From Flavisolibacter longurius (lineage in GTDB: Bacteria; Bacteroidota; Bacteroidia; Chitinophagales; Chitinophagaceae), in contig JABUMY010000009.1 in assembly GCA_013327885.1 (NCBI GenBank), forward strand, positions 124,001 through 188,000: a stretch of DNA of 64,000 bases. Direction: 5' to 3'. Within the stretch, counting starts at the first letter, position 1; the number at the start of each line of letters is the position of its first letter. A program made the position numbers and the translations under genes. Of this stretch, positions 6,848 to 25,246 are shown one piece after another. The notes beneath the pieces were generated by a model. The model was not told the origin of the DNA, made no database searches, and saw only the letters and a program-made list of their open reading frames with translations.

Positions 6848-8070
6848 ATGGCTTTCATGATCCTTTCGGTAGCACCGGTGTTTTTTTCGATATAAGATTT
6901 TGCATTCCTACTGCTTGCTTGCAGGCGACTTTCGTTGGTTAGAAGGTCGCCTGCAAGCTTTTTCAATTCTTCTGCTGTGGCTATGCTGAAGGCGCCGCCG
7001 GCTGCCAGCAATTCGGTGGCCTCGCGGTATTTGCGGTAGTTGGGTCCAAAGATTACCGGCTTGCCCCATACCGCAGCTTCCAGGCTGTTGTGAATCCCAT
7101 CTTTGGTAAATCCGCCACCCACATAGGTAAGCGTGGCATAGGCATATAGCCGCGAAAGCAGTCCCACCGAGTCGATCACCAAGACCTGAGCACCGGCCAG
7201 TGCGGCGGAGTCTTGCTTTACTGCTGAATATAACAGGCAATGGGGGAAAAGCTGCTGTAGTTTGTTCAAATGCGCCACTGTTATTTCGTGCGGAGCGATA
7301 ATGAGCTTCGTCTCAGAATCATGATCGGCATAAGCAGCCAGAATCGCATCGTCACCTTCCCAGGTGCTTCCGGCAACAATTGCCTTTTTGTTTTGAAGAA
7401 AGTTGTTGATGTGAGGTATCTCCGTTGCCTTTTCTGCAATGGTGGCAACGCGGTCAAAGCGTGTATCGCCGCTGATACTGCAGGCGGTAATGTCGATGCT
7501 GTTCAGCAGGTCAACCGAAGCCTTATCCTGGACAAACAGGTGCCGGAAGAAACGGAGCATCTGCCGGAAAAAGCCACCATAGGGCTTGAAAAAAAACTGT
7601 TCCTTCCGAAATGTAGCACTGATCAAAAGAAGCGGCACATGGTGAAAAGCCGCAACGGAAAGGTGATGGTACCAGAACTCGTACTTCACAAAGATCACCA
7701 GTTCGGGATGCACGGTCTTAAAAAACAATTCTGCATTTTTCCGGGTATCGAGCGGTAAATAAGAGATGACATCTGCAAACGGGTAGTTGCTGGCTACGCC
7801 ATAACCCGAGGGTGAAAAAAAAGTTACCAGTATCTTTTTGTCAGGGTAGTCCTGCTTTAAGGCTTCAATCACGGGTTTTCCCTGTTCAAATTCGCCGGCC
7901 GAGGAGCAGTGCATCCAAATTACCTTGTCGGTGGGTGAAATTTTTTTTTGCAGGTGTGAAAAGACGTCTTTTCGGCCTTCCCGCCAGGCCTTTGCCTTAT
8001 TATTAAAGGGGGCAACTTGCCCAATGGCAAACGAATAAAGACGGATAAACTGGTTGTAAAGCGTGAGCAC
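6817..8070 (-). CDS. waaA: 3-deoxy-D-manno-octulosonic acid (Kdo) transferase
   Basis: A GT30 glycosyltransferase that adds Kdo to lipid IVA at the inner membrane. The best start is GTG at 8070 (VLTLYNQFIRLYSFAIG, a typical membrane-dipping N-terminus), giving 417 residues. An upstream TTG at 8103 would add 11 residues that do not look like the family. HCSSAGEFEQGKPVIEAL carries the catalytic-base Glu of GEFEQ. The C-terminal donor-binding half contains YVGGGFTKDGIHNSLEAAVW and GKPVIFGPNYRKYREATELL. Its length is normal. It converges on the hypothetical gene at 5969 with a 31-base overlap. Confidence 0.95.
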   Translation of the reverse strand: MLTLYNQFIRLYSFAIGQVAPFNNKAKAWREGRKDVFSHLQKKISPTDKVIWMHCSSAGEFEQGKPVIEALKQDYPDKKILVTFFSPSGYGVASNYPFADVISYLPLDTRKNAELFFKTVHPELVIFVKYEFWYHHLSVAAFHHVPLLLISATFRKEQFFFKPYGGFFRQMLRFFRHLFVQDKASVDLLNSIDITACSISGDTRFDRVATIAEKATEIPHINNFLQNKKAIVAGSTWEGDDAILAAYADHDSETKLIIAPHEITVAHLNKLQQLFPHCLLYSAVKQDSAALAGAQVLVIDSVGLLSRLYAYATLTYVGGGFTKDGIHNSLEAAVWGKPVIFGPNYRKYREATELLAAGGAFSIATAEELKKLAGDLLTNESRLQASSRNAKSYIEKNTGATERIMKAIQEKRLLTNW

Positions 8071-8121
8071 TTTGCAGGATTCAGCGGCAAATCTAAGCCG
8101 CAACGCCTAATGATATTTCCC

Positions 8122-8129
8122 TATTTTTG
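8122..8129 (+). promoter_or_regulatory. Putative -7 element of the aminotransferase-ugd-uxs operon
   Basis: TATTTTTG fits TAnnTTTG about 100 bases before the aminotransferase ATG and lies in the divergent region upstream of waaA. Consensus match only. Confidence 0.4.
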
Positions 8130-8231
8130 CGGCCGCTGATGAGCAGGTTTTCCCCGTTGCCGCGGTTTCAAAGCCTGCCACCCCCTTAACCGGTGTGTCC
8201 TCATCAAAGATTGTAAATTAAACTTTTGAAG

Positions 8232-9362
8232 ATGCGTCCCCTACAAATGGTTGACCTGAAGCAGCAGTATCAAAAGATCAAAAGTGAAATTGATACCGCC
8301 GTGCTGAATGTGCTGGATAGCTGTGCGTTTATCAATGGTCCGCAGGTGCAGTCGTTTACGGCAGCGCTGGCCGCTTACCATGGTGTTAAACACGTTATCT
8401 CCTGTGCCAATGGTACCGATGCCCTGCAGATTGCCATGATGGCCCTTGACCTGCAGCCCGGCGATGAAGTAATCACCCCATCATTTACCTATATCGCTAC
8501 CACCGAAGTAATTGCGCTGTTGAAGCTCACACCGGTATTTGTGGATGTGGACCCGGAAACGTTTTGCATTGACCCGGAAGCCATTGAAAAAGCCATTACG
8601 CCAAAAACCAGGGCCATTGTTCCTGTGCACCTCTACGGACAGGCCGCCAATATAGAAGCTATTATGAAGCTGGCGGCGGCGCACAAACTGGCTGTGATTG
8701 AGGACAATGCGCAGGCCATCGGCTGCGATTTTCGTTTTTCGGATGGAACGGTAAAGAAAACCGGTGCTATCGGTACCATTGGTACCACATCGTTCTTTCC
8801 CAGCAAAAACCTAGGCGGTTATGGCGATGGCGGCGCCATTATGACCAACGATGATGACCTGGCAGCAAAAATTAAAATGATTGCCAACCACGGCCAGAGC
8901 AAACGGTATTACCACGATATGGTGGGTTGCAACAGCCGGCTGGATACCCTGCAGGCGGCTGTGCTGGAAGTGAAATTGAAATACTTGGACGACTACATTG
9001 CCGCCCGGCAAAAGGTGGCAGGCTATTACGACAAGGCCTTTGCCAACCATCCCAATATTAAAACACCCAGCCGTGCAACGTACTCCAGCCACGTCTTTCA
9101 CCAGTATACTTTAATTCTGGAGGGGCTTGACAGGAACGGTTTGCATGATTATCTTGCAGCCCGTAATATACCCTCCATGATATATTACCCCGTACCAGCC
9201 CACCGCCAAAAGATGTTTGAAAACTACAATGCTTCGGCAACACATCTTTCAAAAACGGACTGGCTTACGGAACGAGTAATCTCACTTCCTATGCATACCG
9301 AGATGGATGAAGAGCAATTGGACTTCATCACGTCGAATGTTTTAGCATTTAGTAAAAAATAA
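8232..9362 (+). CDS. DegT/DnrJ/EryC1/StrS family sugar aminotransferase
   Basis: A PLP-dependent nucleotide-sugar aminotransferase of about 376 residues from the ATG at 8232 (MRPLQMVDLKQQY; a TTG six bases earlier is less likely). Family features: the aromatic-rich N-terminus, CANGTDALQIAMMAL for cofactor phosphate binding, VPVHLYGQAANIEAI, VIEDNAQAIGC with the PLP-ring Asp, and TSFFPSKNLGGYGDGGAI with the Schiff-base Lys. It heads an operon with ugd (15-base gap) and uxs, so the product is probably an amino sugar for LPS or exopolysaccharide. The exact keto-sugar substrate (4-keto or 3-keto) cannot be read from the sequence. Confidence 0.93.
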   Translation: MRPLQMVDLKQQYQKIKSEIDTAVLNVLDSCAFINGPQVQSFTAALAAYHGVKHVISCANGTDALQIAMMALDLQPGDEVITPSFTYIATTEVIALLKLTPVFVDVDPETFCIDPEAIEKAITPKTRAIVPVHLYGQAANIEAIMKLAAAHKLAVIEDNAQAIGCDFRFSDGTVKKTGAIGTIGTTSFFPSKNLGGYGDGGAIMTNDDDLAAKIKMIANHGQSKRYYHDMVGCNSRLDTLQAAVLEVKLKYLDDYIAARQKVAGYYDKAFANHPNIKTPSRATYSSHVFHQYTLILEGLDRNGLHDYLAARNIPSMIYYPVPAHRQKMFENYNASATHLSKTDWLTERVISLPMHTEMDEEQLDFITSNVLAFSKK

Positions 9363-9377
9363 AAAAAAACTAACCAA

Positions 9378-10703
9378 ATGAAAATCACAGTAGTTGGAAC
9401 AGGGTATGTAGGATTAGTGACGGGCACCTGTTTAGCCGAAACCGGGAACCATGTATGCTGCGTCGATATCGACCAGCGTAAAGTAGAAAAACTGCGCTCG
9501 GGCATTATGCCCATTTACGAGCCAGGCCTCGAAAAATTGTTTGAGCGCAACTTAAAAGAAGAGCGCCTCACCTTCACTACATCACTGGAAGAAGGCGTGG
9601 AGCACGGCGAAATCATTTTCCTAGCCCTGCCTACACCTCCGGGTGAAGACGGCTCTGCCGACCTGAAATATGTTTTAGGTGTAGCCGATCACCTGGGTAA
9701 GATCATGACCGATTACAAAGTGATCATTGATAAAAGCACGGTTCCGGTAGGTACCGCCGAAAAAGTGCAGGCTGCCATTGCCAAAAACTTTGACGGCGAG
9801 TTTGATGTTGTGTCCAACCCCGAGTTTCTTCGCGAAGGCGTGGCGGTAGATGACTTCATGAAGCCTGATCGTATTGTGATCGGTACTACATCGGAAAGAG
9901 CACAAAAACTGCTGACCGAATTGTACGGTCCTTATGTGCGCCAGGGTAACCCTATTATCTTTATGGATGAGCGTTCCGCTGAGCTGACCAAATATGCAGC
10001 CAACGCCTTCCTGGCGGTGAAGATTTCTTTCATGAACGAGATTGCCCAGATCTGTGAGCGCCTTGGCGCCGATGTGGATATGGTGCGCAAAGGCATTGGC
10101 TCGGATGAGCGCATTGGCAAACGTTTCCTTTTCCCTGGTATCGGTTACGGTGGCTCCTGCTTCCCCAAAGATGTGAAAGCACTGGTGTACTCTTCCAACG
10201 AAGTTGGTTACGAGTTTAAGATTTTGAACGCTGTTACCGATGTGAACGAATCACAGAAAGTGCATCTTGTGAACAAGATCAAGCGTTATTATAACAACGA
10301 CCTCGCCGGCAAGCGTTTTGCCGTTTGGGGGCTGGCCTTTAAACCCAACACCGATGACATTCGCGAAGCACCAGCCCTGGAGATCATCCGCGAATTGCTG
10401 TCGGCCGGTGCTACGGTAAGTGCCTTCGATCCGGAAGCCATGAACAATGTAAAAGCCATCCTGGGCGAAACCATCACGTTTGCCGAAGGCCAGTACGAGT
10501 GCCTGGAAAACGCTGATGCGCTGATCGTAGCTACTGAGTGGAACGAGTTCCGCACACCGGACTTTGATAAAGTTCTCTCCTCCCTGAAAGATGCGGTTGT
10601 ATTTGATGGCCGTAACGTGTACGATGTGGAGCAGATGGAGAAAAAAGGATTCCATTACGAAAGCATTGGCCGTCCGCTGGTCAACCAACCAAAACTTGTT
10701 TAA
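9378..10703 (+). CDS. ugd: UDP-glucose 6-dehydrogenase
   Basis: Oxidises UDP-glucose to UDP-glucuronate with two NAD+. The 441-residue protein opens with the Rossmann motif VVGTGYVGLVTGTCLAE. It has the family stretches STVPVGTAEKV and NPEFLREGVAV, the central helix ELTKYAANAFLAVKISFMNE, and the catalytic Cys in YGGSCFPKDVKAL. The C-terminal UDP-binding domain contains WGLAFKPNTDDIREAPALEI. It sits directly upstream of a UDP-glucuronate decarboxylase-like gene, which makes the glucuronate route the best reading. Length and motifs are complete. Confidence 0.97.
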   Translation: MKITVVGTGYVGLVTGTCLAETGNHVCCVDIDQRKVEKLRSGIMPIYEPGLEKLFERNLKEERLTFTTSLEEGVEHGEIIFLALPTPPGEDGSADLKYVLGVADHLGKIMTDYKVIIDKSTVPVGTAEKVQAAIAKNFDGEFDVVSNPEFLREGVAVDDFMKPDRIVIGTTSERAQKLLTELYGPYVRQGNPIIFMDERSAELTKYAANAFLAVKISFMNEIAQICERLGADVDMVRKGIGSDERIGKRFLFPGIGYGGSCFPKDVKALVYSSNEVGYEFKILNAVTDVNESQKVHLVNKIKRYYNNDLAGKRFAVWGLAFKPNTDDIREAPALEIIRELLSAGATVSAFDPEAMNNVKAILGETITFAEGQYECLENADALIVATEWNEFRTPDFDKVLSSLKDAVVFDGRNVYDVEQMEKKGFHYESIGRPLVNQPKLV

Positions 10704-11681
10704 ATGAAAAAAAGAGTACTGATCACAGGTGGTGCCGGATTTCTGGGCTCTCACCTTTGTGACCGTTTTATCCGCGAAGGTTACGAGGTCATTGCCATGG
10801 ATAACCTGATCACAGGTGACCTGCGCAACATCGAGCACCTGTTTCCGCTGAAAGAATTCCAGTTCTACCATCACGATGTAACCAAGTTTATCCATGTACC
10901 GGAAGACCTGGATTATATCCTGCATTTTGCCTCACCGGCATCTCCCATCGACTACCTGAAAATTCCTATTCAAACCCTGAAAGTAGGGGCAATGGGAACC
11001 CACAACTGCCTGGGACTGGCAAGGGCCAAAGGTGCCCGCATCCTGGTGGCGTCTACCTCAGAAGTTTATGGCGATCCGCTGGTGCACCCGCAAACCGAAG
11101 AGTACTGGGGCAATGTAAACCCGGTAGGTCCGCGTGGTGTTTATGACGAAGCCAAGCGTTACCTGGAGTCTATCACCATGGCCTACCACAATTTCCATGG
11201 CGTGGAAACCCGCATCATACGCATCTTTAATACGTACGGTCCGCGCATGCGGTTGAACGACGGCCGTGCCCTGCCGGCTTTTATCGGCCAGGCACTTCGC
11301 GGTGAAGACCTCACTGTGTTTGGCGACGGCTCACAAACCCGTTCGTTCTGTTATGTAGATGACCTGGTGGAAGGCATTTACCGACTGCTCCTTAGCGACT
11401 ATTCCCTGCCGGTGAACATTGGTAACCCTGACGAGATTTCGCTAAAGGATTTTGCAGAAGAAGTGCTGAAACTGACCGGTGAGAATGTGAAGATCTCTTA
11501 CCAGCCCCTGCCGGCTGATGATCCAAAGCAGCGCAAGCCGGACATCACCAAAGCAAAGGCCATTCTCGATTGGGAGCCAACAGTGGGCAGAGCCGAAGGC
11601 TTGAAGAAGACCTATGAGTACTTCAAATCATTGCCTGAAGAAGAGTGGAGCAAAAAGCCAAAAGAATTTGTGAGCAAATAG
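10704..11681 (+). CDS. UDP-glucuronate decarboxylase (UDP-xylose synthase), SDR family
   Basis: An extended short-chain dehydrogenase of 325 residues whose ATG directly follows the ugd stop codon. It begins [17 protein letters not shown] (NAD-binding GxxGxxG). It has [31 protein letters not shown], and the catalytic YDEAK in [14 protein letters not shown]. Next come [16 protein letters not shown] and [14 protein letters not shown], both characteristic of the UXS/UDP-apiose branch. It probably converts UDP-glucuronate from Ugd to UDP-xylose. A related 4-epimerase activity is the main alternative. It is the last gene of the operon before a terminator. Confidence 0.92.
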
Positions 11682-11741
11682 GAGTGTAGGCGGCAGTTCG
11701 TCCTTGGCGGGCAATGCCAATAACGCTAACTTCATCTGGAA

Positions 11742-11770
11742 AGCCACCGTCAAAAGCGGTGGTCTTTCTT
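11742..11770 (+). terminator. Terminator after the aminotransferase-ugd-uxs operon
   Basis: The stem CCACCG / CGGTGG, extended by flanking weak pairs, has a TCAAAAG loop and is followed by the T-rich TCTTTCTTT. It ends the first sugar operon; the remaining bases to 11951 show no gene. Confidence 0.65.
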
Positions 11771-11951
11771 TGCCGATATGTTAGTGACCTTTAGGAAGAA
11801 CGAATATTTCATTTTCTTACAAGCGAATAAGGCGTATCTGCGGGGGCATTTTAATTCCTTTTAAAAATTTCACCCTGAAAAAAATCAAATATCACACTCT
11901 CTCGATCTGCCAATACCCATTTCTCCACCTTCTGACCCGCTTTCACTTCCC

Positions 11952-11959
11952 TATATTTG
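11952..11959 (+). promoter_or_regulatory. Putative -7 element of the second sugar operon
   Basis: TATATTTG is a perfect TAnnTTTG match 19 bases before the ATG at 11978. TTCTGA about 17 bases upstream could act as a weak -33. It supports independent transcription of the dehydrogenase-rfbC-rfbD group. Confidence 0.5.
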
Positions 11960-11977
11960 CACCGCAATAAAAAAACA

Positions 11978-13267
11978 ATGTACCAGGAACTCATAGACAA
12001 AAAAGAAAAGTTGGCGGTAATAGGCCTTGGCTATGTGGGTCTTCCCATTGCCCTTGAATTTGCCCGTAAACTTTCGGTGATTGGATTTGACATCAACGAA
12101 AAACGCGTGGATATGATGCGACAGGGCATCGATCCGAGCAATGAGCTGGAACCCGGCGCTTTTGAAGGCTGTGACATTGCGTTTACCACGTCGCTGGACG
12201 TATTGCGCCAGGCAAAGTTTTACGTGGTAGCTGTTCCTACACCGGTTGACGAGCACAATGTACCTGACCTGACGCCGGTGAAAAAAGCGTCGGAAACCAT
12301 TGGCAAAGTGATCAAAAAAGGTGACTATGTTGTGTTTGAATCCACGGTATACCCTGGCTGCACCGAAGAAGACTGTTTGCCTATTATCGAGAAGCTTTCG
12401 GGCCTGAAAAATATTGTTGATTTTAAGCTGGGTTATTCACCTGAGCGTATCAATCCCGGTGATAAAAAACACACCATCCGCACGGTGGTAAAAGTGGCAT
12501 CGGGTTGTGACGCTGAGTCATTGGAAGAAATTGCCAAAACCTACGAACTGGTGGTGGATGCCGGTGTGCACCGTGCATCGAGCATCAAGGTTGCCGAAGC
12601 GGCCAAGATCATCGAGAATACACAGCGTGACCTGAACATTGCCCTGATGAACGAGCTTTCCATCATCTTTGATAAAATGGGTATTAATACTTACGAAGTG
12701 CTGGAAGCAGCCGGTACCAAGTGGAATTTTTTAAAATTCAGCCCAGGCCTGGTGGGTGGGCATTGCATTGGCGTCGATCCGTATTATCTCACCTATAAAG
12801 CAAGTGAGCTGGGATACAATTCAAGGGTGATCCTCGCCGGTAGATACATTAACGACAATATGTCGAACTATGTAGCCCGGAAAGTGGTGCGGCACATCAT
12901 CAGTAATGTGAGCGATGTAAAAGCGGCTAAAGTGTTGGTGATGGGTGCCACGTTCAAAGAAAATGTAAGCGATATACGCAACTCCAAGGTGGCCGATGTG
13001 GTGAAGGAATTAAAAGAGTTTTATGTGAATGTGGATGTGGTGGATCCCTATGCGGATTCGGAAGAATTGTCGCATGAATATGGCTTTGGCCTGGCCGATA
13101 AAACTGCTGACGATTACGATGCAGTAATTGTGACGGTTTGCCATGAGCCATACGCCGATTATGCGGATGATTATTTTTCGTCCATCACCAAGCCCAATGC
13201 ATTGATCGCTGATCTTAAAGGTGTGTACAAAGGCAAGATCACCAACAGAAACTACTGGAGTTTTTAA
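11978..13267 (+). CDS. UDP-N-acetylhexosamine-type nucleotide sugar dehydrogenase (TviB/WbpA-like)
   Basis: About 429 residues from the ATG at 11978 (MYQELIDKKEKLAVIGLGYVGLP); an in-frame TTG at 11957 is less likely. The N-terminal Rossmann motif is GLGYVGLPIALEFARK. STVYPGCTEEDCLPI, GYSPERINPGDKKH and the catalytic Cys segment GGHCIGVDPYYL follow. GGHCIGVDPYYL is the form typical of UDP-GlcNAc/UDP-GalNAc 6-dehydrogenases (WbpA, TviB, WecC), as opposed to the GGSCFPKD of the Ugd encoded 2.5 kb upstream. It therefore probably makes a UDP-N-acetylhexosaminuronate for capsule or O-antigen. Exact sugar specificity is inferred. Confidence 0.92.
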   Translation: MYQELIDKKEKLAVIGLGYVGLPIALEFARKLSVIGFDINEKRVDMMRQGIDPSNELEPGAFEGCDIAFTTSLDVLRQAKFYVVAVPTPVDEHNVPDLTPVKKASETIGKVIKKGDYVVFESTVYPGCTEEDCLPIIEKLSGLKNIVDFKLGYSPERINPGDKKHTIRTVVKVASGCDAESLEEIAKTYELVVDAGVHRASSIKVAEAAKIIENTQRDLNIALMNELSIIFDKMGINTYEVLEAAGTKWNFLKFSPGLVGGHCIGVDPYYLTYKASELGYNSRVILAGRYINDNMSNYVARKVVRHIISNVSDVKAAKVLVMGATFKENVSDIRNSKVADVVKELKEFYVNVDVVDPYADSEELSHEYGFGLADKTADDYDAVIVTVCHEPYADYADDYFSSITKPNALIADLKGVYKGKITNRNYWSF

Positions 13268-13268
13268 C

Positions 13269-13832
13269 ATGCCATTTCAGCAAACCCATATATCGGGCCT
13301 GCTCATCTTTGAACCAACCGTTTTTGAAGACAGCCGTGGCTATTTTTTCGAAGCGTTCAACGAAAACAGCTTCAGGGAAGAAGGCGTGGACACTCGCTTT
13401 GTACAGGATAACCAATCCAAGTCTTCTTATGGCGTTATCCGCGGTTTGCACTACCAGTTGCCGCCATATGCACAATCAAAACTGGTTCGTGTATTAGAAG
13501 GACGTATCCTGGATGTAGCCGTTGATATTCGCAACGGCTCACCAACATTCGGACAGTCGCTTGCCATTGAAATATCGGCCGAAAACAAAAAGCAATTGTA
13601 TATTCCGGCTGGTTTTGCGCATGGCTTTTCGGTGTTAAGTGAAACTGCAATCGTTTTTTACAAATGCGACCAGTTTTACAACAAAGAATACGAAGGCGGT
13701 ATCCGTTATGATGACCCTGCGCTCCGCATCGACTGGCAGATTGAAAAAAAAAGGGAGATTGTTTCGGAAAAAGACCTGACGCTTCCCCTTTTTGCCGATT
13801 GCAAAAACAGCTTTGAATTTTTTTCAAGATGA
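13269..13832 (+). CDS. rfbC: dTDP-4-dehydrorhamnose 3,5-epimerase
   Basis: Third step of dTDP-L-rhamnose synthesis. The ATG at 13269 lies one base after the preceding stop and gives 187 residues. RmlC cupin motifs: PTVFEDSRGYFFEAFNE, QDNQSKSSYGVIRGLHYQ with the catalytic His of RGLHYQ, VDIRNGSPTFGQ, YIPAGFAHGFSVLSE, and YKCDQFYNKEYEGGI. Its last four bases overlap rfbD (ATGA), indicating translational coupling. rfbA and rfbB are not in this window, so the nucleotide activation steps must be encoded elsewhere. Confidence 0.96.
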   Translation: MPFQQTHISGLLIFEPTVFEDSRGYFFEAFNENSFREEGVDTRFVQDNQSKSSYGVIRGLHYQLPPYAQSKLVRVLEGRILDVAVDIRNGSPTFGQSLAIEISAENKKQLYIPAGFAHGFSVLSETAIVFYKCDQFYNKEYEGGIRYDDPALRIDWQIEKKREIVSEKDLTLPLFADCKNSFEFFSR

Positions 13833-14710
13833 AAACTCTTCCCGTCATACTTGTCACAGGCAGCAACGGTCAATTGGGCAGCGAACTGAGAGAATTGGCG
13901 CCATCTTTCCCGCAGTATAAATTAGTTTTTTTCTCCCGCACGGAACTGGCCATTGAGAATGGGGAAGAAGTGGAAAGAGCATTTGCCCTGCTGCACCCGC
14001 AATACGTGATCAATTGTGCAGCCTACACGGCAGTGGACAAAGCCGAAACCGAAAAAGAAGAAGCTCTGGCCATCAATGCAAGGGCCGTGGGACTTCTGGC
14101 AAATGCATCCAAACGTTACCATGCCAAATTTATTCATGTATCCACTGATTATGTTTTTGACGGCACCAGCCGCGAACCCTTAGCGGAAGATGCGCCTGTT
14201 TCGCCAGTAAATTTTTATGGTGCCTCTAAATTGAAAGGAGAGGAGGAAGCACAAAAAGAAAATGCGGAAAGCATCATCATCCGCACTTCCTGGGTGTATT
14301 CATTTTACGGAAAGAATTTTGTCAAGACCATGCTTCGCCTGCTGGCAGAAAAAGAAAGTATTTCGGTTGTTTCCGACCAATGGGGCTCACCAACCTATGC
14401 GGCCGACCTGGCAGAAGCCATTCTTCATATCATTGAAAGTGGCAAGTGGCTGCCGGGCATTTATCATTACAGCAATGATGGCGTGATCAACTGGGCGCAG
14501 TTTGCCGATGCCATCCGGCAGCAAACCGGCAGCAACTGCACTGTGCAGTTTATTACTACCGAACAATACCCCACACCGGCCAAAAGGCCAGCCTATTCGG
14601 TGATGGATAAAACCAAGATTGTTGCTGCCTATGGCATTGCACTAAAGCCCTGGCAGGAAAGCTTGCAGGTATGCCTGCAAAAATTGCAACGTGCAGCGGC
14701 TGCTTCGTAA
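13829..14710 (+). CDS. rfbD: dTDP-4-dehydrorhamnose reductase
   Basis: Final NAD(P)H-dependent step to dTDP-L-rhamnose. This 293-residue SDR protein begins ILVTGSNGQLGSELRE. It contains NCAAYTAVDKAETEKEEA, STDYVFDGTSREPLAEDAP, the catalytic Tyr-Lys in NFYGASKLKGEEEA, and RTSWVYSFYGKNFVKTML. DQWGSPTYAADLAEAI and the C-terminal RPAYSVMDKTKI are also diagnostic of RmlD. It is coupled to rfbC by a 4-base overlap. No terminator is evident before the sensor kinase gene 69 bases downstream. Confidence 0.96.
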   Translation: MKTLPVILVTGSNGQLGSELRELAPSFPQYKLVFFSRTELAIENGEEVERAFALLHPQYVINCAAYTAVDKAETEKEEALAINARAVGLLANASKRYHAKFIHVSTDYVFDGTSREPLAEDAPVSPVNFYGASKLKGEEEAQKENAESIIIRTSWVYSFYGKNFVKTMLRLLAEKESISVVSDQWGSPTYAADLAEAILHIIESGKWLPGIYHYSNDGVINWAQFADAIRQQTGSNCTVQFITTEQYPTPAKRPAYSVMDKTKIVAAYGIALKPWQESLQVCLQKLQRAAAAS

Positions 14711-14779
14711 TACGGCTCTTCAGTATTTTGGTTGATCCATTTGCAGCAATGTTGGAAAATATTATTTTAGGCAACACGT

Positions 14780-16408
14780 ATGCAACAGGTAGCCGATTTT
14801 TTCCAAAAACTTCTTGACACTGCTGACTGGCCGCCACGCTGGCGTTGCGGCAACTGGACCGATTTTCATGGCTGGCTTTACATCATCAGCGATTTGCTTA
14901 TCTGGTCGGCTTATTTTGCCATTCCGCTTACGATAATAAAATACATCTCACGCCGGCAAGATGCCCGGTTCATCCGGGCATATTTCCTGTTTGCTGCGTT
15001 TATCCTTGCCTGTGGTTCTACGCATTTACTCGACGCGGTTACATTTTGGTTCCCGGCTTATCGCCTGAATGCGTTGGTTCGATTTATTACCGGCGTGGTC
15101 AGCTGGATAACGGTCTTTTATCTTATCAGGATTTTACCTGTCGCCAATTCTCTTCGCAGTCATGCCGAACTGGAGAAAGAAATTACCGACAGAAAGAAAG
15201 TGGAGGACGAACTGCTTGTTGCCAACCAACAACTGAATGCAGCGCAAGAGATCGCCAAGCTGGGGCACTGGCAATGGGATGTAGCGGCTAATAAAGTCAC
15301 CTGGTCCGATGTGCTTTGTAATATTTACCAGATCCCGACGAACGAAATGTCGTATGAAGCCTATCTGCAGAAAGTGCATCCCGACGACCGCGATTTCGTA
15401 AATGCTGCCGTGCAAAGAGCTTTTGCAGAAAAAAAATTTCCTGCCTATACACACCGCATCCTTTTTGAAGACGGTTCGGAAAAAGTGTTGCAGGCAAGAG
15501 GGGAAGTGCAATTGGATAGTGAAGGAAATGTGGTCCGCATGTTGGGTACAGGGCAGGACATTACAGAAATTCAAACGGCGCAACAACAATTGGTGGAACG
15601 GACGCATGCATTGGAAACCTCCAATGCAGAACTGCAACGGTTTGCCTATGTTACCTCTCATGATCTACAGGAACCGCTGCGGAAAATCACGACGTTTGCT
15701 TCGCTGCTAGACAGGGAGGTTAATGGCCAGATGAGTGAAAGCGGCCGTATTTACATGGACAAGATCGTGCAATCGGCAGGGCGCATGCAGCGACTGATCG
15801 ATGATATCCTGGCCTTCTCCAGCCTACGAGACTTCAATGAAGGTTATGTGCCAACCGATTTGAATGTCGTTGTAAAACAGGTTATTTCCGATCTGGAAAC
15901 GCGGATCGAGGCAACAGGCGCTGTCATTCAATTTGAAAAGCTGCCGGTGATTGATGCCATTCCTTCGCAGATGGAACAACTTTTTCAAAACCTGATCAGC
16001 AATGCCATTAAGTTCAGCCGGAAGGGAGAGCGACCAGTTGTTACCATTACCAGTAAACTGGTAAGCGTGGATGCTATTGACAACTATAACCTGGTAGATG
16101 ATACCACGCTAAACCAGCGGGGATTTACGTATAACTGGGGCCGTGAGCAATTTGTACAGATTGAAGTGATCGACAACGGAATTGGCTTTGATGAAGCCTA
16201 TGCCGAAAAAATATTCGAGATCTTCCAGCGCCTGCACAGCAATACGGATGGAACAGGTATCGGCCTGGCAATTTGCAAAAAAATTGCAGACAATCACCAC
16301 GGCATTATTTCGGCACATGGCTCAGCAGGCAAAGGGGCACGGTTCCAGGTTAATCTTCCTGTTTCGCAAAAGATATTTCTTGCAACAGGCGCAAAGGTGC
16401 CTGAATAA
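14780..16408 (+). CDS. Ethylene-receptor-like sensor histidine kinase (EBD-PAS-HisKA-HATPase)
   Basis: A 542-residue membrane kinase. Residues ~30-125 form three hydrophobic helices that align without gaps to the ethylene-binding domain of plant ETR1 as I recall it. SDLLIWSAYFAIPL gives D38, Y45 and P49; FILACGSTHLLD gives I75, C78 and H82. These correspond to ETR1 D25, Y32, P36, I62, C65 and H69, including the two Cu(I) ligands. A PAS/PAC domain follows (~150-260: LGHWQWDVAANKVTWSD ... VHPDDR). Then come HisKA with H294 in TSHDLQEPLRKI and HATPase with NLISNAIKFS and DNGIGF. No receiver domain is fused. The gene lies downstream of rfbD; no partner regulator is adjacent. The fold call is strong, but the ligand (ethylene or another small molecule) is inferred. 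Confidence 0.9.
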   Translation: MQQVADFFQKLLDTADWPPRWRCGNWTDFHGWLYIISDLLIWSAYFAIPLTIIKYISRRQDARFIRAYFLFAAFILACGSTHLLDAVTFWFPAYRLNALVRFITGVVSWITVFYLIRILPVANSLRSHAELEKEITDRKKVEDELLVANQQLNAAQEIAKLGHWQWDVAANKVTWSDVLCNIYQIPTNEMSYEAYLQKVHPDDRDFVNAAVQRAFAEKKFPAYTHRILFEDGSEKVLQARGEVQLDSEGNVVRMLGTGQDITEIQTAQQQLVERTHALETSNAELQRFAYVTSHDLQEPLRKITTFASLLDREVNGQMSESGRIYMDKIVQSAGRMQRLIDDILAFSSLRDFNEGYVPTDLNVVVKQVISDLETRIEATGAVIQFEKLPVIDAIPSQMEQLFQNLISNAIKFSRKGERPVVTITSKLVSVDAIDNYNLVDDTTLNQRGFTYNWGREQFVQIEVIDNGIGFDEAYAEKIFEIFQRLHSNTDGTGIGLAICKKIADNHHGIISAHGSAGKGARFQVNLPVSQKIFLATGAKVPE

Positions 16409-16465
16409 CAAAAGCCCCGTTGCCAGAGCTATTTGTTTACTTCATCGAATGCAAAAAAACGTTTG

Positions 16466-16990
16466 TTATTTGGCTGCGGCCATGGTGCGTTGATACTGTT
16501 TTACACGGTAGGCAAGAATCAGCACACTCACCAGCATCATGCCCAGGATTGAAAAAATGGTGATCAGGCTTGGGCTTTTTCCAACAACAGAAAGAAAGGT
16601 TGGCTCTGGTTGGTCTTTTACTTTGTCGTCTTTTTTGACGGCTGTTGCTGCCTGTGCTTCTGTTTGAATATACGCTACCACATTTTTGATTTGCTCTGCC
16701 GAAAGGTCTTTGTGATCCGGCATGGGAATGTTGTTGAACTGCTTGAAAATGGCAACGGCGTCTTTGTCGCCACTCTGTATCAGCGTCTGCGAAGACTGTA
16801 CAAAGTTGATGATCCAGTCAATGCTCCGTCTTTCGTCAACACCTGCCAGCGCTGGTCCCAGTACCTGTTTTGAAACGTTGTGGCAACCGGCACAGCGGGA
16901 AGTAAAGATCGTTTTGCCTTCTTCAACCGGTGGCGCCGCCTGCAACAGGAGTGAAGCGAATAATGCGAAAAACAGGAACCTACATTTCAT
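16466..16990 (-). CDS. Membrane-anchored mono-heme c-type cytochrome
   Basis: A 174-residue protein with a signal peptide (1-19), a heme c site C33-A-G-C36-H37, and the likely axial Met in NIPMPDHKDLS. A charged Lys/Asp linker follows, then a C-terminal membrane helix (about 138-160, ITIFSILGMMLVSVLILAY). It should carry electrons on the periplasmic face of the inner membrane. The start overlaps the upstream SCO gene by 11 bases, so the two are coupled. Its position beside the nos region makes an electron-donor role for N2O reductase or an oxidase plausible, but this is inference. Confidence 0.9.
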   Translation of the reverse strand: MKCRFLFFALFASLLLQAAPPVEEGKTIFTSRCAGCHNVSKQVLGPALAGVDERRSIDWIINFVQSSQTLIQSGDKDAVAIFKQFNNIPMPDHKDLSAEQIKNVVAYIQTEAQAATAVKKDDKVKDQPEPTFLSVVGKSPSLITIFSILGMMLVSVLILAYRVKQYQRTMAAAK

Positions 16991-17594
16991 TGTATAGCTT
17001 TTTTATGTCGTTGATTAATTGAAGAACATCTTTTTCGGAAGTGCCGCTGTAATAACCGCGGATGCGGTGTTCTTTGTCAAGCAGCACCAGCTTGTCACTG
17101 TGAATAAAATCATGGTCACCGCCATCGCCATCATTGGCAGCAATGGCAAAACTTTTACGGGCCAGCCGGTAGATCAGTGCTTTCTCACCGGTGAGCAGGT
17201 TCCAGTTTCCGCTTACGCCAAATTTTTCCGCAAAGAGGGCCAGTTGTGTTACGGAATCTCTTGCGGGGTCAACAGAAAATGAATTGAACTGTAGGTCATT
17301 TTTACCGGCAAAGGCAGCCTGCACCTGTTTCAGGTTCCTGGTCATTTTAGGACAAACAAGCGGGCAATGCGTAAAAAAGAAATCCGCCACCACGATCTTG
17401 TTTTTCCAGTCCTTTAGCGAAATGGTTTGACCGTTTTGGTTGGTCAGGCTAAAATCCCTCACCGTGAAATTTTCGCCTTTATACACCGGCAGGGCACGAC
17501 CCCTGTTTTCAATCCAGTGCACTATGGCAAACACGGTGATAGGCGTAATTAAAACAACGGCAATGATCAGCGATATGGAATGTTTTTTTAGCAT
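16980..17594 (-). CDS. SCO1/SenC/PrrC family copper chaperone
   Basis: A 204-residue thioredoxin-fold protein tethered by an N-terminal membrane helix (about 8-28). It has the copper-binding CxxxC in FFTHCPLVCPKMTRN (C77, C81) and the distal His region HDFIHSDKLVLLD. SCO proteins deliver copper to CuA centres or act as thiol reductases in the periplasm. NosZ, encoded about 8 kb away, has a CuA domain and is a plausible client, as is a terminal oxidase. The gene heads a two-gene operon with a cytochrome c. A perfect 22-bp FNR-like palindrome lies about 110-130 bases upstream of the start. Confidence 0.93.
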   Translation of the reverse strand: MLKKHSISLIIAVVLITPITVFAIVHWIENRGRALPVYKGENFTVRDFSLTNQNGQTISLKDWKNKIVVADFFFTHCPLVCPKMTRNLKQVQAAFAGKNDLQFNSFSVDPARDSVTQLALFAEKFGVSGNWNLLTGEKALIYRLARKSFAIAANDGDGGDHDFIHSDKLVLLDKEHRIRGYYSGTSEKDVLQLINDIKKLYNEM

Positions 17595-17705
17595 GGTTGC
17601 ACCGGCGTTGTTTAACCCTGTGTTTGTGTTGTTGGCAGCGAGGTTTATTTGTTGCGGTAAAAGTATTTGTCACGGCAAGGTCAGTGTATGATAGCGCTTT
17701 GTACA

Positions 17706-17727
17706 AAACCTGATTTTTATCAGGTTT
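17706..17727 (-). promoter_or_regulatory. 22-bp perfect palindrome, FNR/CRP-type dyad (operator candidate)
   Basis: AAACCTGAT-TTTT-ATCAGGTTT is a perfect inverted repeat. Its core CTGAT-N4-ATCAG resembles the FNR/DNR consensus TTGAT-N4-ATCAA with one substitution per half-site. It lies upstream of the SCO-cytochrome c operon, and a second copy of the core occurs at 19336-19353. A REC-CRP regulator is encoded at 32748. Which protein binds it is unknown. Confidence 0.5.
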
Positions 17728-17907
17728 CCGGCGACAATAAAGGTTGCCTGTTTCCATTGGCGGATTCTCTAATCCTTTTTATCTATTGTTGGGAGATGAT
17801 TGTCTAGTAACAGCGGCGAGCATTTGCGCTTCGGCCGGCGCCCCGGTTAAATGATTTTCTTTTTTGGTAACCGAAAAGCTGCGATGAAACTCTACTCGCC
17901 ACCTTGT

Positions 17908-17915
17908 TATCTTTG
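17908..17915 (+). promoter_or_regulatory. Putative -7 element for the gene at 17980
   Basis: TATCTTTG fits TAnnTTTG 64 bases before the ATG. No clear -33 element is seen. The 385-base divergent region 17595-17979 holds this element and the palindrome at 17706, and no gene that I can support. Confidence 0.35.
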
Positions 17916-17979
17916 AAAAGAGTGCAACGACGGCAGCCGCAGGTATCCCATACGCATTTGCGCTGAACAAGTAAACAAC

Positions 17980-18453
17980 ATGAAAGCAGCAACAGCCAAC
18001 GAAATAAAGCAACGCTTAAAAGAGCTGGATAAAAAAGACCTCATGGATCTTTGTCTCCGGCTTTCGCGTTATAAAAAAGAAAACAAGGAACTGCTGACCT
18101 TTTTGCTTTTTGAATCCGATGACCTGCCGCATTACATCCAAAGTGTAAAAGAAGAACTGGACGAGATCTTTTCGGATGTGAATGCCAGCAGCGTTTTTTT
18201 CGCCAAAAAAACAATTCGCAAGGCCTTACGGACAGCCAACCGTTACATCCGTTATGCCGGCGATAAAACAGCGGAAGCAGAACTGTTGTTGCATTTCTGC
18301 ACCAATTTCCAAGCGTTGAAGCTGGACTGGAAACGCAGCACCCTTTTGTCAAAGATCTATTTTAACCAGCTTAAAAAGGCGGGAGCAGCCATTGACAGTA
18401 TGCACGAGGACCTGCAGTATGATTACCGGCGCACCTACGACCGGTTAAAATAG
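17980..18453 (+). CDS. Hypothetical helical protein
   Basis: A 157-residue, highly charged, Lys/Leu-rich protein (KQRLKELDKKDLMDLCLRLSRY ... KKTIRKALRTANRYIRYAG ... YDYRRTYDRLK). It appears all-helical and has no signal peptide or membrane segment. I do not recognise a named family with confidence. Codon use and amino acid composition resemble the neighbours, a promoter-like element precedes it, and the ORF has no good competitor, so it is probably a real cytoplasmic protein. It may be cotranscribed with the small membrane protein 88 bases downstream. Confidence 0.7.
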   Translation: MKAATANEIKQRLKELDKKDLMDLCLRLSRYKKENKELLTFLLFESDDLPHYIQSVKEELDEIFSDVNASSVFFAKKTIRKALRTANRYIRYAGDKTAEAELLLHFCTNFQALKLDWKRSTLLSKIYFNQLKKAGAAIDSMHEDLQYDYRRTYDRLK

Positions 18454-20724: not shown

Positions 20725-21492
20725 CTACAAATCTTTTTTATTGAACGAGCGAATGGCCAGCAGCAGCGGCGCTGCGATCCAGACCAGCATTATGCCCAGG
20801 GTATAGAGCAACCCTGCCTGGCTGCCAAAAAAATCTTTGTACACGGCACCGGTATAACCCATCAAGGCACTTACATCCATTTGCAGCATCAGGTAAATAC
20901 GACCCAAGTCAATGGGGTTGAAAGAAGACAACGCAAGAATGATCTTCTCCAGCGGGTAATCTGAAAAGGTAAACAACACCAGCAGGAGCAGGCCATCGAA
21001 GATGAGGGCAAAATAAAACCAAAGAAGAAGCGCAGCGCCAATGCCCCGGGCCTTGTCCCGCGATTTAATAGAAGCCAAAAAAGCAATAGCGGTAAACACA
21101 AGCGTCAGCAGGCTGCCTACAAGTAGCAAGGCCAGTCCTGTGCTATCGAAATTGTATAGCAGCACCGGGATGCCAACACCTACCAAAAAAGCAGTTACGA
21201 GTGATGAGCCGATGCCCGCAAATTCGCTGAGCAAAACCTTTCGGCGGCTGATAGGTTGCGTCAGCATCAGTTCAATAAATTCGTAAGAGTTATACCAGTG
21301 AATGGTGGAGAATACCATGCTCACCAGGGGAACAACAATGAGCACAATGTTGAGCAAGCTTAACACGGCTTTGCTGCTGTTTACTTCCATTTGGAAAAGC
21401 GAGAACGAAACCAGGAGAAGAAAGGCCGTATAGGCAATCACCACCCTGTTGCGGAGAATATCGTATAGAACGTATTTGGATAGTTTAAGCAT
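20725..21492 (-). CDS. nosY: NosY-type ABC transporter permease
   Basis: A 255-residue ABC-2 permease with about six helices: VLYDILRNRVVIAYTAFLLLV, SLLNIVLIVVPLVSMVFSTIHWYNSYEFIELMLTQPI (split here by a loop), and a C-terminal LLYTLGIMLVWIAAPLLLAI. The motif NSYEFIELMLTQPISRRKV is typical of NosY. With NosF and NosD it forms the transporter system needed for copper-site (CuZ) assembly in nitrous oxide reductase; the transported sulfur species is not established. It is the last gene of the minus-strand nos operon, separated from nosF by a 96-base gap filled by a heptad hairpin repeat. Confidence 0.93.
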   Translation of the reverse strand: MLKLSKYVLYDILRNRVVIAYTAFLLLVSFSLFQMEVNSSKAVLSLLNIVLIVVPLVSMVFSTIHWYNSYEFIELMLTQPISRRKVLLSEFAGIGSSLVTAFLVGVGIPVLLYNFDSTGLALLLVGSLLTLVFTAIAFLASIKSRDKARGIGAALLLWFYFALIFDGLLLLVLFTFSDYPLEKIILALSSFNPIDLGRIYLMLQMDVSALMGYTGAVYKDFFGSQAGLLYTLGIMLVWIAAPLLLAIRSFNKKDL

Positions 21493-21506
21493 GGCGAAAC
21501 GTTTTC

Positions 21507-21588
21507 GTGAGTGGTGAGTGGTCAGTGGTGAGTTGCGCAGCTTTCGTTTTTCTGTCAGCCCTATTCACTACTCACCATTCACCACTCA
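21507..21588. repeat. Inverted heptad cassette (four direct plus four inverted 7-mers)
   Basis: GTGAGTG, GTGAGTG, GTCAGTG and GTGAGTT lie at 21507-21534. After about 28 bases come inverted heptads of the same kind in the CACTACTCACCATTCACCAC region (to 21588), able to form a long hairpin. The same design, with GTCAGTG again as third unit, occurs at 52786-52852. It fills the nosF-nosY gap. Confidence 0.85.
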
Positions 21589-22332
21589 TTATTTTGCTAT
21601 TTTCAGTTGATTCAATTCTTTTGGCTTTATGCCATAGCGCATAAAATAGGCAATGGCTTTTCCCAGTTTGTCTTCGCCGGTAAGGGCAAAAAGATTTTGC
21701 AGGGTTTTGTAAAACACCACCTGGCCATCCTGCAGGTACAACACATCGGTGGTCAGTTCTTCCAGGTCGGTAAGAATGTGCGATGTAATAAGAATAAGCT
21801 TTCCTTTCCCTTTTTCCTTCACGATCTTTTCCTTGAGCGTTTCCGACGAAAGTGGGTCCAAGCCTGCCGTTGGCTCGTCAAGGATCAATACATCCGCATC
21901 AAACATAAAGGCCAGCGCCGCACTTACTTTTTGCCTTGTACCACCCGACAAACCTTTCATCGGTTTTTCAAGCATGGTGTTCAGCTTAAAGCTGTGGAAC
22001 AATTCTTCATCCAGTTGCTGCGGGTCGCTGTGCAGGTTTTTCATCATGCTGAACAACTGCCCAATGGTCATGTTGTCCGGGTAGCGGCCGATCTGCGGCA
22101 TATAACCAATGTTGCGACGGTAGGCGATGTCTTTTTCCACCGGCACGCCATTGAACGTTATCTTACCGGCATCGGGCTTTACCAGGCCCAGGATACTTTT
22201 GATCAGCGTTGTTTTGCCTGAGCCGTTGGGACCTATCAGCGATATCACCTGGCCTTTTTTAAATTCCACCGATATATCGTGCAGGGCCTGCAGCTTTTTA
22301 AAGCGCTTCTGAAGTTTTTCTATTTGTATCAT
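21589..22332 (-). CDS. nosF: NosF-type ABC transporter ATP-binding protein
   Basis: A 247-residue ATPase that powers the NosDFY system for maturation of nitrous oxide reductase. Walker A is GPNGSGKTTLIKSILGL at about 33-49, the Q-loop is in YMPQIGRYPDNM, the signature is GLSGGTRQKVSAALAFM, and Walker B is VLILDEPTAGLDPLS. The switch His is in ITSHILTDLEEL. The short C-terminal extension LTGEDKLGKAIAYFMRYGI is normal for NosF. Its start overlaps the nosD stop by 4 bases, indicating translational coupling. Confidence 0.96.
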   Translation of the reverse strand: MIQIEKLQKRFKKLQALHDISVEFKKGQVISLIGPNGSGKTTLIKSILGLVKPDAGKITFNGVPVEKDIAYRRNIGYMPQIGRYPDNMTIGQLFSMMKNLHSDPQQLDEELFHSFKLNTMLEKPMKGLSGGTRQKVSAALAFMFDADVLILDEPTAGLDPLSSETLKEKIVKEKGKGKLILITSHILTDLEELTTDVLYLQDGQVVFYKTLQNLFALTGEDKLGKAIAYFMRYGIKPKELNQLKIAK

Positions 22333-23561
22333 CTCCTGATCATTTTCATTACCGGTGCTTCATCCACGAGGTTTTCGGGTGTAAGGCTGGGAATGGCTTT
22401 TTCGGCCTTGTCCAGCAGCGTCACCATAAAGCTTCGCATGAGAATCACCGCGTTTGGGTTTTGTTCTATTACCATCGAATACATACTCACCGGGTGGTAA
22501 GGCACATCGCCCAGTCCATCGCGGGTCATATCGTATCCTTCGTATTTATCCCAGTAATTGTTTACAAAACGGTTTAGCGTTAAGCTTCCATTGGTCGCCA
22601 CATCAAAGGTGTTGGCAGTAAAATTATTTTGCTGCATTAGGTTGTCGTCGCAACTGGCCTGAATGCGCAGAGCCCAGCCGTTGTTGCGAAAATCGTTGCC
22701 CGAAACATCAATGCGGTTGGTGGTCTCCATCAGCACGCCTACCGTATTGGTGTCAAACGTGTTGCTAATGATCTGCGAGTCGTTGATCTCTTTCAGCAGG
22801 AGGCCATAGGCATTGGCGCCCCAGTTCTGCTCAAAATGGTTGCTGTGCATCAGTACGTGGTGCGAATACATCACAGCCACGCCGGCACCGTTACCGGTAA
22901 ACGTGTTACCGATATAACCATTGTTGTTGGAGAACATGAAATGTAGTCCGTACCGGATGTTGTTAAAGCTGTTGTTGTCTTCAATGATCGAATGCGTGAC
23001 AAATTCAAAATAGATCCCGTCGCGGTGACCCTGGATGGTGTTGCCTTTTACCAGGATGTTCTCACACTTCCAGAGATGAATGCCATTGCCGGAAGATTGT
23101 TCGTTAACGGCAACGCCATTGATAATGTTGTTACGCACCACGCTATAGGTGGAGTTGGCAATGTGAATGGCAAAATACGAATGGTCGATGACGTTATTTT
23201 CTACCAACACAAACGAGGCATCCACCAGCTTGATGGAAGCATAATCGTTCATGCTGGAATAGCCGGCGTTTTGAAACCTAATTCCTTTCACCACTATGCT
23301 TTGACCACTGATGGTAAGGATCTCGTTCTTGTTTTCTCCATCCAGCACAGCGCCTTCTTCGCCAATAAAAAAAACAGATTTTGTCAACTGCAGGTTGCCT
23401 TCTTTGTAAACGCCTTTTTTCAGTAGCACCGTATCGCCGGTGGTAGCAAGTTCAAATGCTTCCCGGACGGTTTTTACAGCTTCACTGCCACCTACCGGTA
23501 TAGTTCGCGAAAAGCCCTGTGCAGCGAAAAGAAAAAGGAGTATGGTCAGGAGTTGTTTCAT
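22329..23561 (-). CDS. nosD: NosD, periplasmic nitrous oxide reductase maturation protein
   Basis: A 410-residue exported protein with signal peptide MKQLLTILLFLFAAQGFSRT. It carries a right-handed parallel beta-helix of repeated carbohydrate-binding/sugar-hydrolase-type units (VENNVIDHSYFAIHIANST, VVRNNIINGVAVNEQ, LVKGNTIQGHRDGIYFEFV, LMHSNHFEQNWGANAYGLL). Near the C-terminus, NNYWDKYEGYDMTRDGLGD is characteristic of NosD. It works with NosF and NosY in building the CuZ centre. The gene lies 15 bases after nosL and overlaps nosF by 4 bases. Confidence 0.96.
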   Translation of the reverse strand: MKQLLTILLFLFAAQGFSRTIPVGGSEAVKTVREAFELATTGDTVLLKKGVYKEGNLQLTKSVFFIGEEGAVLDGENKNEILTISGQSIVVKGIRFQNAGYSSMNDYASIKLVDASFVLVENNVIDHSYFAIHIANSTYSVVRNNIINGVAVNEQSSGNGIHLWKCENILVKGNTIQGHRDGIYFEFVTHSIIEDNNSFNNIRYGLHFMFSNNNGYIGNTFTGNGAGVAVMYSHHVLMHSNHFEQNWGANAYGLLLKEINDSQIISNTFDTNTVGVLMETTNRIDVSGNDFRNNGWALRIQASCDDNLMQQNNFTANTFDVATNGSLTLNRFVNNYWDKYEGYDMTRDGLGDVPYHPVSMYSMVIEQNPNAVILMRSFMVTLLDKAEKAIPSLTPENLVDEAPVMKMIRR

Positions 23562-23576
23562 GAAGCGAGGAATGCT

Positions 23577-24614
23577 TTAGGGTGTCAAAACAGTTTTCCA
23601 GTCTTTTACAGTGCCGCCTGTTTGCCCTGCTGCTTTTGATGCGGCTTCTTTGCCGGCAAAGGCAGCCGTGTTGCTGTTCATGGGGCTTTTAAGTTGCGCA
23701 CTGGTAACAAAGGCAGCTTCTTCTACCGGTATAAAACGCGAAGCATCGTTGTAATCAACGGCAAGCGCCTGCCCGATCTCGTCCTGGCTGATCTTCTTCT
23801 TGTTAATATAATTGGTAATGCAATGAAGATCGTCAAACTTATAAATGCGTCCTTTTTTGGTAATGATCTCGGCGCCAAACTGCGGTTCCATAATGGTCAT
23901 CATGCAATCGGCACAAAGGTCTTTGCCTACGACAAAAGGTTCGGGTTGGGTGTTACAAGAAGTGGCCAGCATAACGGTTGCTATGGCAACGGCGATCTTA
24001 CTGGCAGATTTTGTTTTTGCTACCGGTGAGGCTTGCACGTTTTTACGGTTCTTGTACCATTCGTAAAAATAAACAAGGAAGAAAATGGCCCCGGCAACCG
24101 TGATGATCCACCCGCCTGTATCGGGATAAGAATAGGCGTCGAAGTTCAGCAAGGTCTTGTGGCCGATAACAGGAGGCTGGTAGCTAAAGCCAGGTACTTT
24201 AATGGCAGCGTTGGGGTCAAGGTCGTGGCCATAATCGTATCCCCACTGGTAAAAATCATACAGGGCTGCGCCGGCCAAAATAGCCGTCAGCACCAGCAGG
24301 GAAAGTAAAAGCTTGCGGGTGCCAACAAAAGCCACCAGTAAGCCGTAAGCAATAAAACCGGCAAGGATGTATTTCATGTAACCAAATTCGGGAAACATGT
24401 CGGCACTGATATGCTTCATGCCAATGTAGTGGTTAAGGCCGTTGATGATGTCTACCTGGCCGGAAAATTTTGTCAGCCAGATATTCATTTGTAGTCCTTC
24501 GGGATACTGCGGAGCAATAAGGTAAATGGCCCATACGGGTAAGAAGAAAACTGCGATCATTCCTGCCGATGCAACTGCAATCAGTATTCTTGAAATTGTG
24601 CTCATCTTTTTCAT
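23577..24614 (-). CDS. nosL: NosL-type copper protein fused to an N-terminal membrane domain
   Basis: A 345-residue protein. The N-terminal ~200 residues are a membrane module: a helix at about 10-33, further helices around 85-125 (FGYMKYILAGFIAYGLLVAF, LLLSLLVLTAILAGAALYDF) and around 168-186, with periplasmic loops containing DYGHDLDPNAAI. A linker and helix VAIATVMLATSCNTQ lead into a NosL domain. That domain has CADCMMTI (copper-site Cys/Met), FGAEIITKKGRIYKFDDLHC, and DASRFIPVEEAAFV. NosL delivers Cu(I) to NosZ. In proteobacterial systems NosL is a short lipoprotein; here a lipobox-like ATSC sits internally. One continuous frame, no frameshift seen. Fifteen bases precede nosD. Confidence 0.88.
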   Translation of the reverse strand: MKKMSTISRILIAVASAGMIAVFFLPVWAIYLIAPQYPEGLQMNIWLTKFSGQVDIINGLNHYIGMKHISADMFPEFGYMKYILAGFIAYGLLVAFVGTRKLLLSLLVLTAILAGAALYDFYQWGYDYGHDLDPNAAIKVPGFSYQPPVIGHKTLLNFDAYSYPDTGGWIITVAGAIFFLVYFYEWYKNRKNVQASPVAKTKSASKIAVAIATVMLATSCNTQPEPFVVGKDLCADCMMTIMEPQFGAEIITKKGRIYKFDDLHCITNYINKKKISQDEIGQALAVDYNDASRFIPVEEAAFVTSAQLKSPMNSNTAAFAGKEAASKAAGQTGGTVKDWKTVLTP

Positions 24615-24634
24615 GCGATCGGAATTTTAAAAAC

Positions 24635-24659: not shown

Positions 24660-24666
24660 TGTTTGA

Positions 24667-25224: not shown

Positions 25225-25246
25225 AAAACAGCGTTATTGAAAGCTG

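Follow-up and report, generated by a model that had tools for sequence, protein, structure and literature searches.

An ethylene-receptor-type histidine kinase encoded behind a nucleotide-sugar operon in a clade of Chitinophagaceae

The window (the whole stretch of DNA analysed here, 64,000 nucleotides long) carries a rhamnose/UDP-sugar operon of six genes, followed directly by the gene for a 542-residue sensor histidine kinase (Table 1). A preliminary description of this DNA had given the kinase reading frame, its coordinates and its strand correctly; the place that it assigned to the gene, after the sugar operon, was also right, and it is shared by all five kinases of the clade to which this one belongs.

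Table 1. Genes, domains and intergenic gap at the kinase locus (positions in the window)
Feature	Position	Strand	Basis or remark
DegT/DnrJ/EryC1 sugar aminotransferase	8226..9362	+	
Nucleotide-sugar dehydrogenase, UDP-glucose 6-dehydrogenase (UGD) type	9378..10703	+	TIGR03026 over cut-off; TuaD match below cut-off
NAD-dependent sugar epimerase/dehydratase, UDP-xylose synthase (UXS) type	10704..11681	+	matches below cut-off only; exact activity inferred
Nucleotide-sugar dehydrogenase, TviB-like	11957..13267	+	
rmlC, dTDP-4-dehydrorhamnose 3,5-epimerase	13221..13832	+	true start probably downstream of 13221
rmlD, dTDP-4-dehydrorhamnose reductase	13829..14710	+	
rmlD-kinase gap, 69 bases	14711..14779	+	terminator-like fold absent in the window copy
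Ethylene-receptor-type sensor histidine kinase, 542 aa	14780..16408	+	ORF, Pfam domains, single genome copy
Ethylene-binding domain ETR1_N (PF25487), residues 30-124	14867..15151	+	Pfam, residue check, AlphaFold2 helices
PAS_3, residues 173-257	15296..15550	+	Pfam, over cut-off
HisKA, residues 285-350, phospho-acceptor H294	15632..15829	+	Pfam over cut-off, motif
HATPase_c, residues 395-529, N/G1/F/G2 motifs	15962..16366	+	Pfam over cut-off, motif

The N-terminal domain of the kinase matches the Pfam ethylene-binding family PF25487 (ETR1_N) with 108.7 bits against a cut-off of 27, i.e. at four times the cut-off (E 1.8e-31), so the profile search bore out the proposed nature of the domain. Further along the protein, HisKA and HATPase domains with their catalytic motifs identify a two-component kinase: the motif SHDLQEPLR, which starts at residue 293, designates H294 as the phospho-acceptor histidine, and the ATPase motifs (N, G1, F and G2) are intact. 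H294 is invariant in the 40 kinases of an alignment (A3) made of the window kinase and 39 of 78 relatives (500-565 aa). Both a profile search and a sequence search of the window genome gave a single match to the ethylene-binding family; the same family search found none in 14 control genomes, and phage records gave no match at E 1e-5. The gene is under purifying selection and has not decayed; comparison with the kinase of Flavisolibacter longurius (genome G006, locus L053) gave a dN of 0.136 and a dS of 1.69, the latter being near saturation.

Single-chain AlphaFold2 models placed helices at residues 28-58 (28-57 in the model of the domain alone), 65-88 and 94-124, with another helix after them (whole protein, mean pLDDT 80.2, pTM 0.49; domain alone, mean pLDDT 86.2, pTM 0.68). 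The domain is thus predicted to have the ETR1-type arrangement of three membrane helices with the cysteine and the histidine on the second. No solved homologue of the domain was found by sequence (one match, E 2.6) or by fold comparison (best E 1.7).

According to two papers, ethylene binding by plant ETR1 requires seven residues (PMC11819568), among which D25, I35, P36, I62, C65 and H69 are named (PMC11819568, PMC6586836). All seven have their counterparts in the window kinase, as D38, Y45, I48, P49, I75, C78 and H82; six of these had been placed correctly in the preliminary description, and I48, which was not listed there, is also present. The seventh ETR1 residue is Y32, as that description had it. 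The alignment to ETR1, described earlier as gapless, is so through helix 2 but not beyond, where the plant domain is three residues longer. By contrast, the window domain aligns without gaps to that of AzoEtr1, the receptor of Azospirillum brasilense (locus L176; sequence taken from a plasmid record of strain Sp7), with an identity of about one third. R101 of the window kinase aligns with K98 of AzoEtr1, which corresponds to K91 of ETR1, and the spacing from the histidine to the basic residue is 19 in the window kinase (H82-R101), 19 in AzoEtr1 (H79-K98) and 22 in ETR1 (H69-K91; residue numbers of the two known receptors from PMC11819568).

AzoEtr1 resembles the window kinase in several respects: the two proteins, which match over their whole length with an E of 1e-36, share the order ethylene-binding domain (EBD)-PAS-HisKA-HATPase, a similar length, the seven binding residues and an N-terminal cysteine. 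The profile match, the residues and the gapless alignment to AzoEtr1 agree, and the assignment of the gene, on sequence grounds, to the ethylene-receptor-type kinases, as first proposed, is well supported. AzoEtr1 has been described as binding radiolabelled ethylene, both in yeast and in its own cells (PMC11819568), and, given the shared residues, we consider it probable that the window kinase also binds ethylene in a Cu(I)-dependent manner. The two loci differ in that the AzoEtr1 gene overlaps a gene for a 135-aa response regulator (PMC11819568), whereas the window kinase has none nearby and lies behind a sugar operon. SynEtr1 (slr1212) of Synechocystis PCC 6803 likewise joins a membrane ethylene-binding domain to a bacterial histidine kinase, so that, as the preliminary description had it, such domains were already known in other bacteria. 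SynEtr1, by its published description, has a phytochrome-like domain and responds to light as well, its signal going to slr1213 and a small RNA (PMC11819568, PMC10452086); the window kinase has a PAS domain. ETR1 itself shares the seven residues and the three-helix domain, but carries a GAF domain and, at its C terminus, a receiver (PMC6586836), both of which are absent from the window kinase.

We scanned named genomes with an alignment (A1) of segments from ten of 20 regions, the ten left out including the divergent L050 and L052 and L046, which has a stop in frame. The scan returned at least 567 relatives, of which the best 80 are all Bacteroidota by title; 78 of these (L096 and L097, without a kinase ORF, were dropped) and the window kinase make up a set of 79 kinases, and a further alignment (A4) holds 50 of the 80 loci and the window. 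Within these best 80, the EBD kinases of Niastella, Pseudoflavitalea, Mucilaginibacter, Dyadobacter and others (L053-L132) have 53-86% domain identity to that of the window, and the proteins range from 347 to 1453 aa. Among the 79 kinases (from the best 80 of at least 567 relatives), C78 is present in all and is accompanied by H82 in 74; 64 have all seven residues and ten have partial sites, with methionine or leucine for I48 in nine and glutamate for D38 in one. The remaining five have tyrosine for H82 so that, as far as sequences tell, the family drifts from the copper site in 5/79 of this best-80 set.

The five H82Y kinases (L111, L113, L115, L116 and L121, with the L121 kinase ORF at 10001-11044) form one clade of EBD proteins of 347-351 aa that read CGATY instead of CGxTH and lack the N-terminal cysteine. 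L121, the only one scanned, gave no HATPase match. In L113 the kinase is preceded by a gene that reads as FeoB-like, and an ORF of similar size stands there in the other four. This clade may represent a decayed or a repurposed receptor.

Loss of this kind raises the question of whether the domain of the window kinase is itself a relic that serves to anchor the protein in the membrane and to let it dimerise, with the actual sensing left to the PAS domain. The H82Y clade, with its one scanned member lacking a HATPase match, shows that decay happens in the family. However, identities between the window kinase and its four linked relatives (see below) are 81-86% in the ethylene-binding domain, 48-85% in PAS, 63-87% in HisKA and 47-72% in HATPase. 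The ethylene-binding domain ranks first in three of these relatives and is exceeded in F. longurius by HisKA, by one point; we regard a relic as very improbable.

A cysteine before helix 1 (C23 in the window, 14846-14848) occurs in 70 of the 79 Bacteroidota kinases (best 80 of at least 567) and in all seven aligned receptors from cyanobacterial and proteobacterial plasmids. It could perhaps form a disulphide by analogy with that at ETR1 residues 4 and 6 (PMC6586836). We also considered C23 as a third copper ligand and rejected this, for it is missing from the five H82Y kinases but also from four kinases that have H82; because the five form one clade, the joint absence of C23 and H82 counts as a single event. 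The N-terminal motif is PRW in the window kinase, as opposed to (P/A)HG in the other aligned bacterial receptors. This difference, the identity of about one third to the AzoEtr1 domain and the H82Y kinases count against the reading as an ethylene receptor.

The conservation of C78 (79/79) and H82 (74/79, best 80 of at least 567) would also be expected if the domain bound Cu(I) chiefly as a copper or redox sensor, or sensed another small ligand, ethylene being incidental. The surroundings seemed at first sight to fit: genes for cytochrome c and SCO1 come next in the window (16466-17594) and in F. longurius, and beyond them the window has a nitrous-oxide reductase (nos) cluster. This cluster (20725-27323, minus strand) includes a Sec-dependent NosZ (25299-27323, TIGR04246) and ORFs that, by reading only, are NosD-, NosF-, NosY- and NosL-like. 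Yet the remaining residues linked with ethylene binding are conserved too, the cytochrome c and SCO1 genes adjoin the operon in genome G009, which lacks the kinase, and they are not among the neighbours examined in Cnuella, Paracnuella and MGR269, three of the five clade members. On the last two grounds the argument from a copper neighbourhood was set aside. Three copper P-type ATPases score over the cut-off in the window genome, which is uninformative because 13 of the 14 control genomes also have one. Altogether, a sensor mainly of copper or of another ligand appears quite unlikely.

We then turned to the sugar operon. Its six genes (DegT, UGD, UXS type, TviB-like, rmlC and rmlD) lie directly in front of the kinase in four of 18 genus genomes, namely the window genome, F. 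longurius, Cnuella takakiae (G013, L054) and G017. The kinases so linked and that of Paracnuella aquatica, five in all, form one clade with a support of 99/96 in a tree of 64 of the 79 kinases (those of at most 620 aa, from the best 80 of at least 567; the tree drew a long-branch warning, but not among the five linked rows). In all five clade members, named Flavisolibacter, Cnuella or Paracnuella, the six genes directly precede the kinase and their order is unchanged. By contrast, the downstream side varies: cytochrome c and SCO1 genes follow in the window and F. longurius, sugar and glycosyltransferase genes in Cnuella, FecR and SusCD-type genes at some distance in Paracnuella and a 1395-aa ORF on the opposite strand in MGR269.

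This constancy, together with the sugar genes on the far side of the Cnuella kinase, would suit a dedicated regulator of the operon through which ethylene controls surface polysaccharide. So would reports that ethylene alters the cell surface or biofilm in Synechocystis, through SynEtr1, and in Azospirillum (PMC11819568, PMC6682694), where ethylene or disruption of the receptor lowers biofilm formation and root colonisation (PMC11819568); a surface output, which the preliminary description had called unusual, would thus have precedents. The operon is, however, also found on its own. Fourteen genus genomes have no linked kinase. Judged by tblastn, nine of them (G009, G012, G007, G014, G016, G010, G005, G003 and G008) have the complete operon and sequence after it, 1.3 kb after rmlD in the case of G012, with no kinase there. 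In the remaining five (G001, G002, G004, G011 and G015) the operon is cut by a contig end or is partial at that place. In G009 the flanks on either side are the same and the site between them is empty: rmlD and the cytochrome c ORF stand 170 bases apart, and a tblastn search of this stretch with the kinase gave chance matches only (E 1.0 and 3.6). G014 and G004 have a shorter kinase, placed elsewhere. The survey that had been suggested of how often the kinase adjoins sugar operons therefore came out positive within the clade (5/5) and negative in these nine genomes. The UXS-type gene is present in all 18 genus genomes, and with the operon conserved across the genus in its own right, the linkage may be simple inheritance.

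The gap between rmlD and the kinase, with ORF starts as listed, measures 69 bases in the window, 69 in F. longurius, 158 in Cnuella, 112 in Paracnuella and 52 in MGR269. The Cnuella and Paracnuella gaps each fold into a long hairpin with a U-rich end (z -2.2, with 3 of 200 shuffles as stable, and z -5.5, with none of 200, respectively); a consensus scan did not call the former and made one call in the latter (shuffles, mean 0.6). Because these hairpins are terminator-like, the kinase probably has its own transcript in these two genomes. The other folds are at chance level in the window (z +1.4), at z -1.1 in F. longurius and at z -2.1 (3/200) in MGR269, where the stretch runs into the gene and the fold is not terminator-shaped. 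Promoter and terminator scans of window positions 8000-18000 stayed at chance level. Co-transcription could thus not serve as proof of sugar control, given a terminator-like hairpin in the gap of two of the five linked copies.

Nor was a partner found in the neighbourhood. A receiver protein of less than 240 aa is encoded by the next same-strand gene in 42 of the 79 kinases (best 80 of at least 567, window included); the receiver model was built from eight neighbours that were later counted, and the eight sent to Pfam, seven of them seeds, all proved to be Response_reg. By contrast, the window kinase has no response regulator within 12 ORFs, and the neighbouring ORFs examined in the four linked relatives gave no match either. 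In six frames the model found none in window positions 2001-30000 (E 1e-3) or, for those relatives, in the flanking sequence, which spans roughly 8 to 10 kb per side. Nor is there a receiver at the +1 position in a six-row neighbour group (Flavipsychrobacter, Taibaiella and others), two members of which have at most one ORF downstream; the tree leaves the branching order among the linked clade and the neighbour groups unsettled. Another receiver model matches 58 places in the window genome, many of them inside larger proteins, and partners in trans therefore exist.

In eleven relatives (L055, L057-L061, L063, L064, L069, L075 and L087) the second gene after the kinase is an ORF in convergent orientation, 478-538 aa long, that matches a receiver domain. 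It turns up repeatedly with the kinase and regulator genes of Niastella and its relatives, looks like receiver-PAS-kinase in L055, the one read, and perhaps belongs to the same pathway.

The linkage to the operon is thus real, but the step from linkage to control of surface polysaccharide is weak, with no receiver gene in the flanks examined, hairpins in two of five gaps and nine operons free of the kinase. We hold a dedicated regulator of the sugar genes to be unlikely: the place behind the operon is best read as an inherited position, and a role at the cell surface is at most a modest hint.

The ethylene-binding family is spread thinly. It occurs in 21 of 395 genomes of a sample across the phylum, in ten of 58 near relatives (one of the ten being below the curated cut-off, with stops) and in six of the 18 genus genomes, the window genome being counted each time. 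Among 72,556 plasmid records, 18 have a match, in cyanobacteria and proteobacteria. One of these, plasmid p2 of Novosphingobium sp. ES2-1 (L179, 2998-4465), carries an EBD kinase gene with an overlapping response regulator gene; the plasmid is typed as conjugative, and such receptors can therefore be mobile. A search of the open literature found no paper on an ethylene receptor in Bacteroidota, Bacteroidetes or Chitinophaga; PMC10452086 mentions Bacteroidetes, but for another enzyme. Receptors of this kind are already known from Synechocystis and Azospirillum; the novelty lies in the setting, a clade of Bacteroidota in which the kinase has no regulator gene beside it and keeps a sugar operon as its neighbour. 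To our knowledge, no circuit that senses ethylene has been shown in Bacteroidota.

To the observed features of the locus (domain order, seven residues, kinase motifs, predicted helices, purifying selection and, across the clade, no adjoining receiver gene) we add a mechanism in which copper binding, ethylene binding, the dimer, the change in the kinase and phosphotransfer in trans are all inferred. The three membrane helices, as a dimer, would bind Cu(I) with C78 and H82 as ligands and D38 in a supporting role. Ethylene would bind the copper, and the signalling helix and the PAS domain would relay the resulting change to the kinase. The phosphorylation of H294 would change, and in turn that of a response regulator whose gene lies at another place in the genome. 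We put the probability of this proposal as a whole, a membrane-bound ethylene receptor kinase with a regulator in trans, at about three in four. The extension in which this Chitinophagaceae clade has a receptor that lacks the adjoining regulator gene of many relatives and has settled permanently beside a nucleotide-sugar operon, and in which ethylene from soil or the root zone would tune surface glycans by way of a regulator in trans, is unlikely.

If the kinase does bind ethylene, a gas signal of plants and soil would be read in another bacterial phylum. The patchy spread of the family within the genus offers natural pairs of genomes with and without the receptor, and the clade lacking a regulator and the H82Y clade are natural contrasts for what the domain may need for sensing and for signalling.
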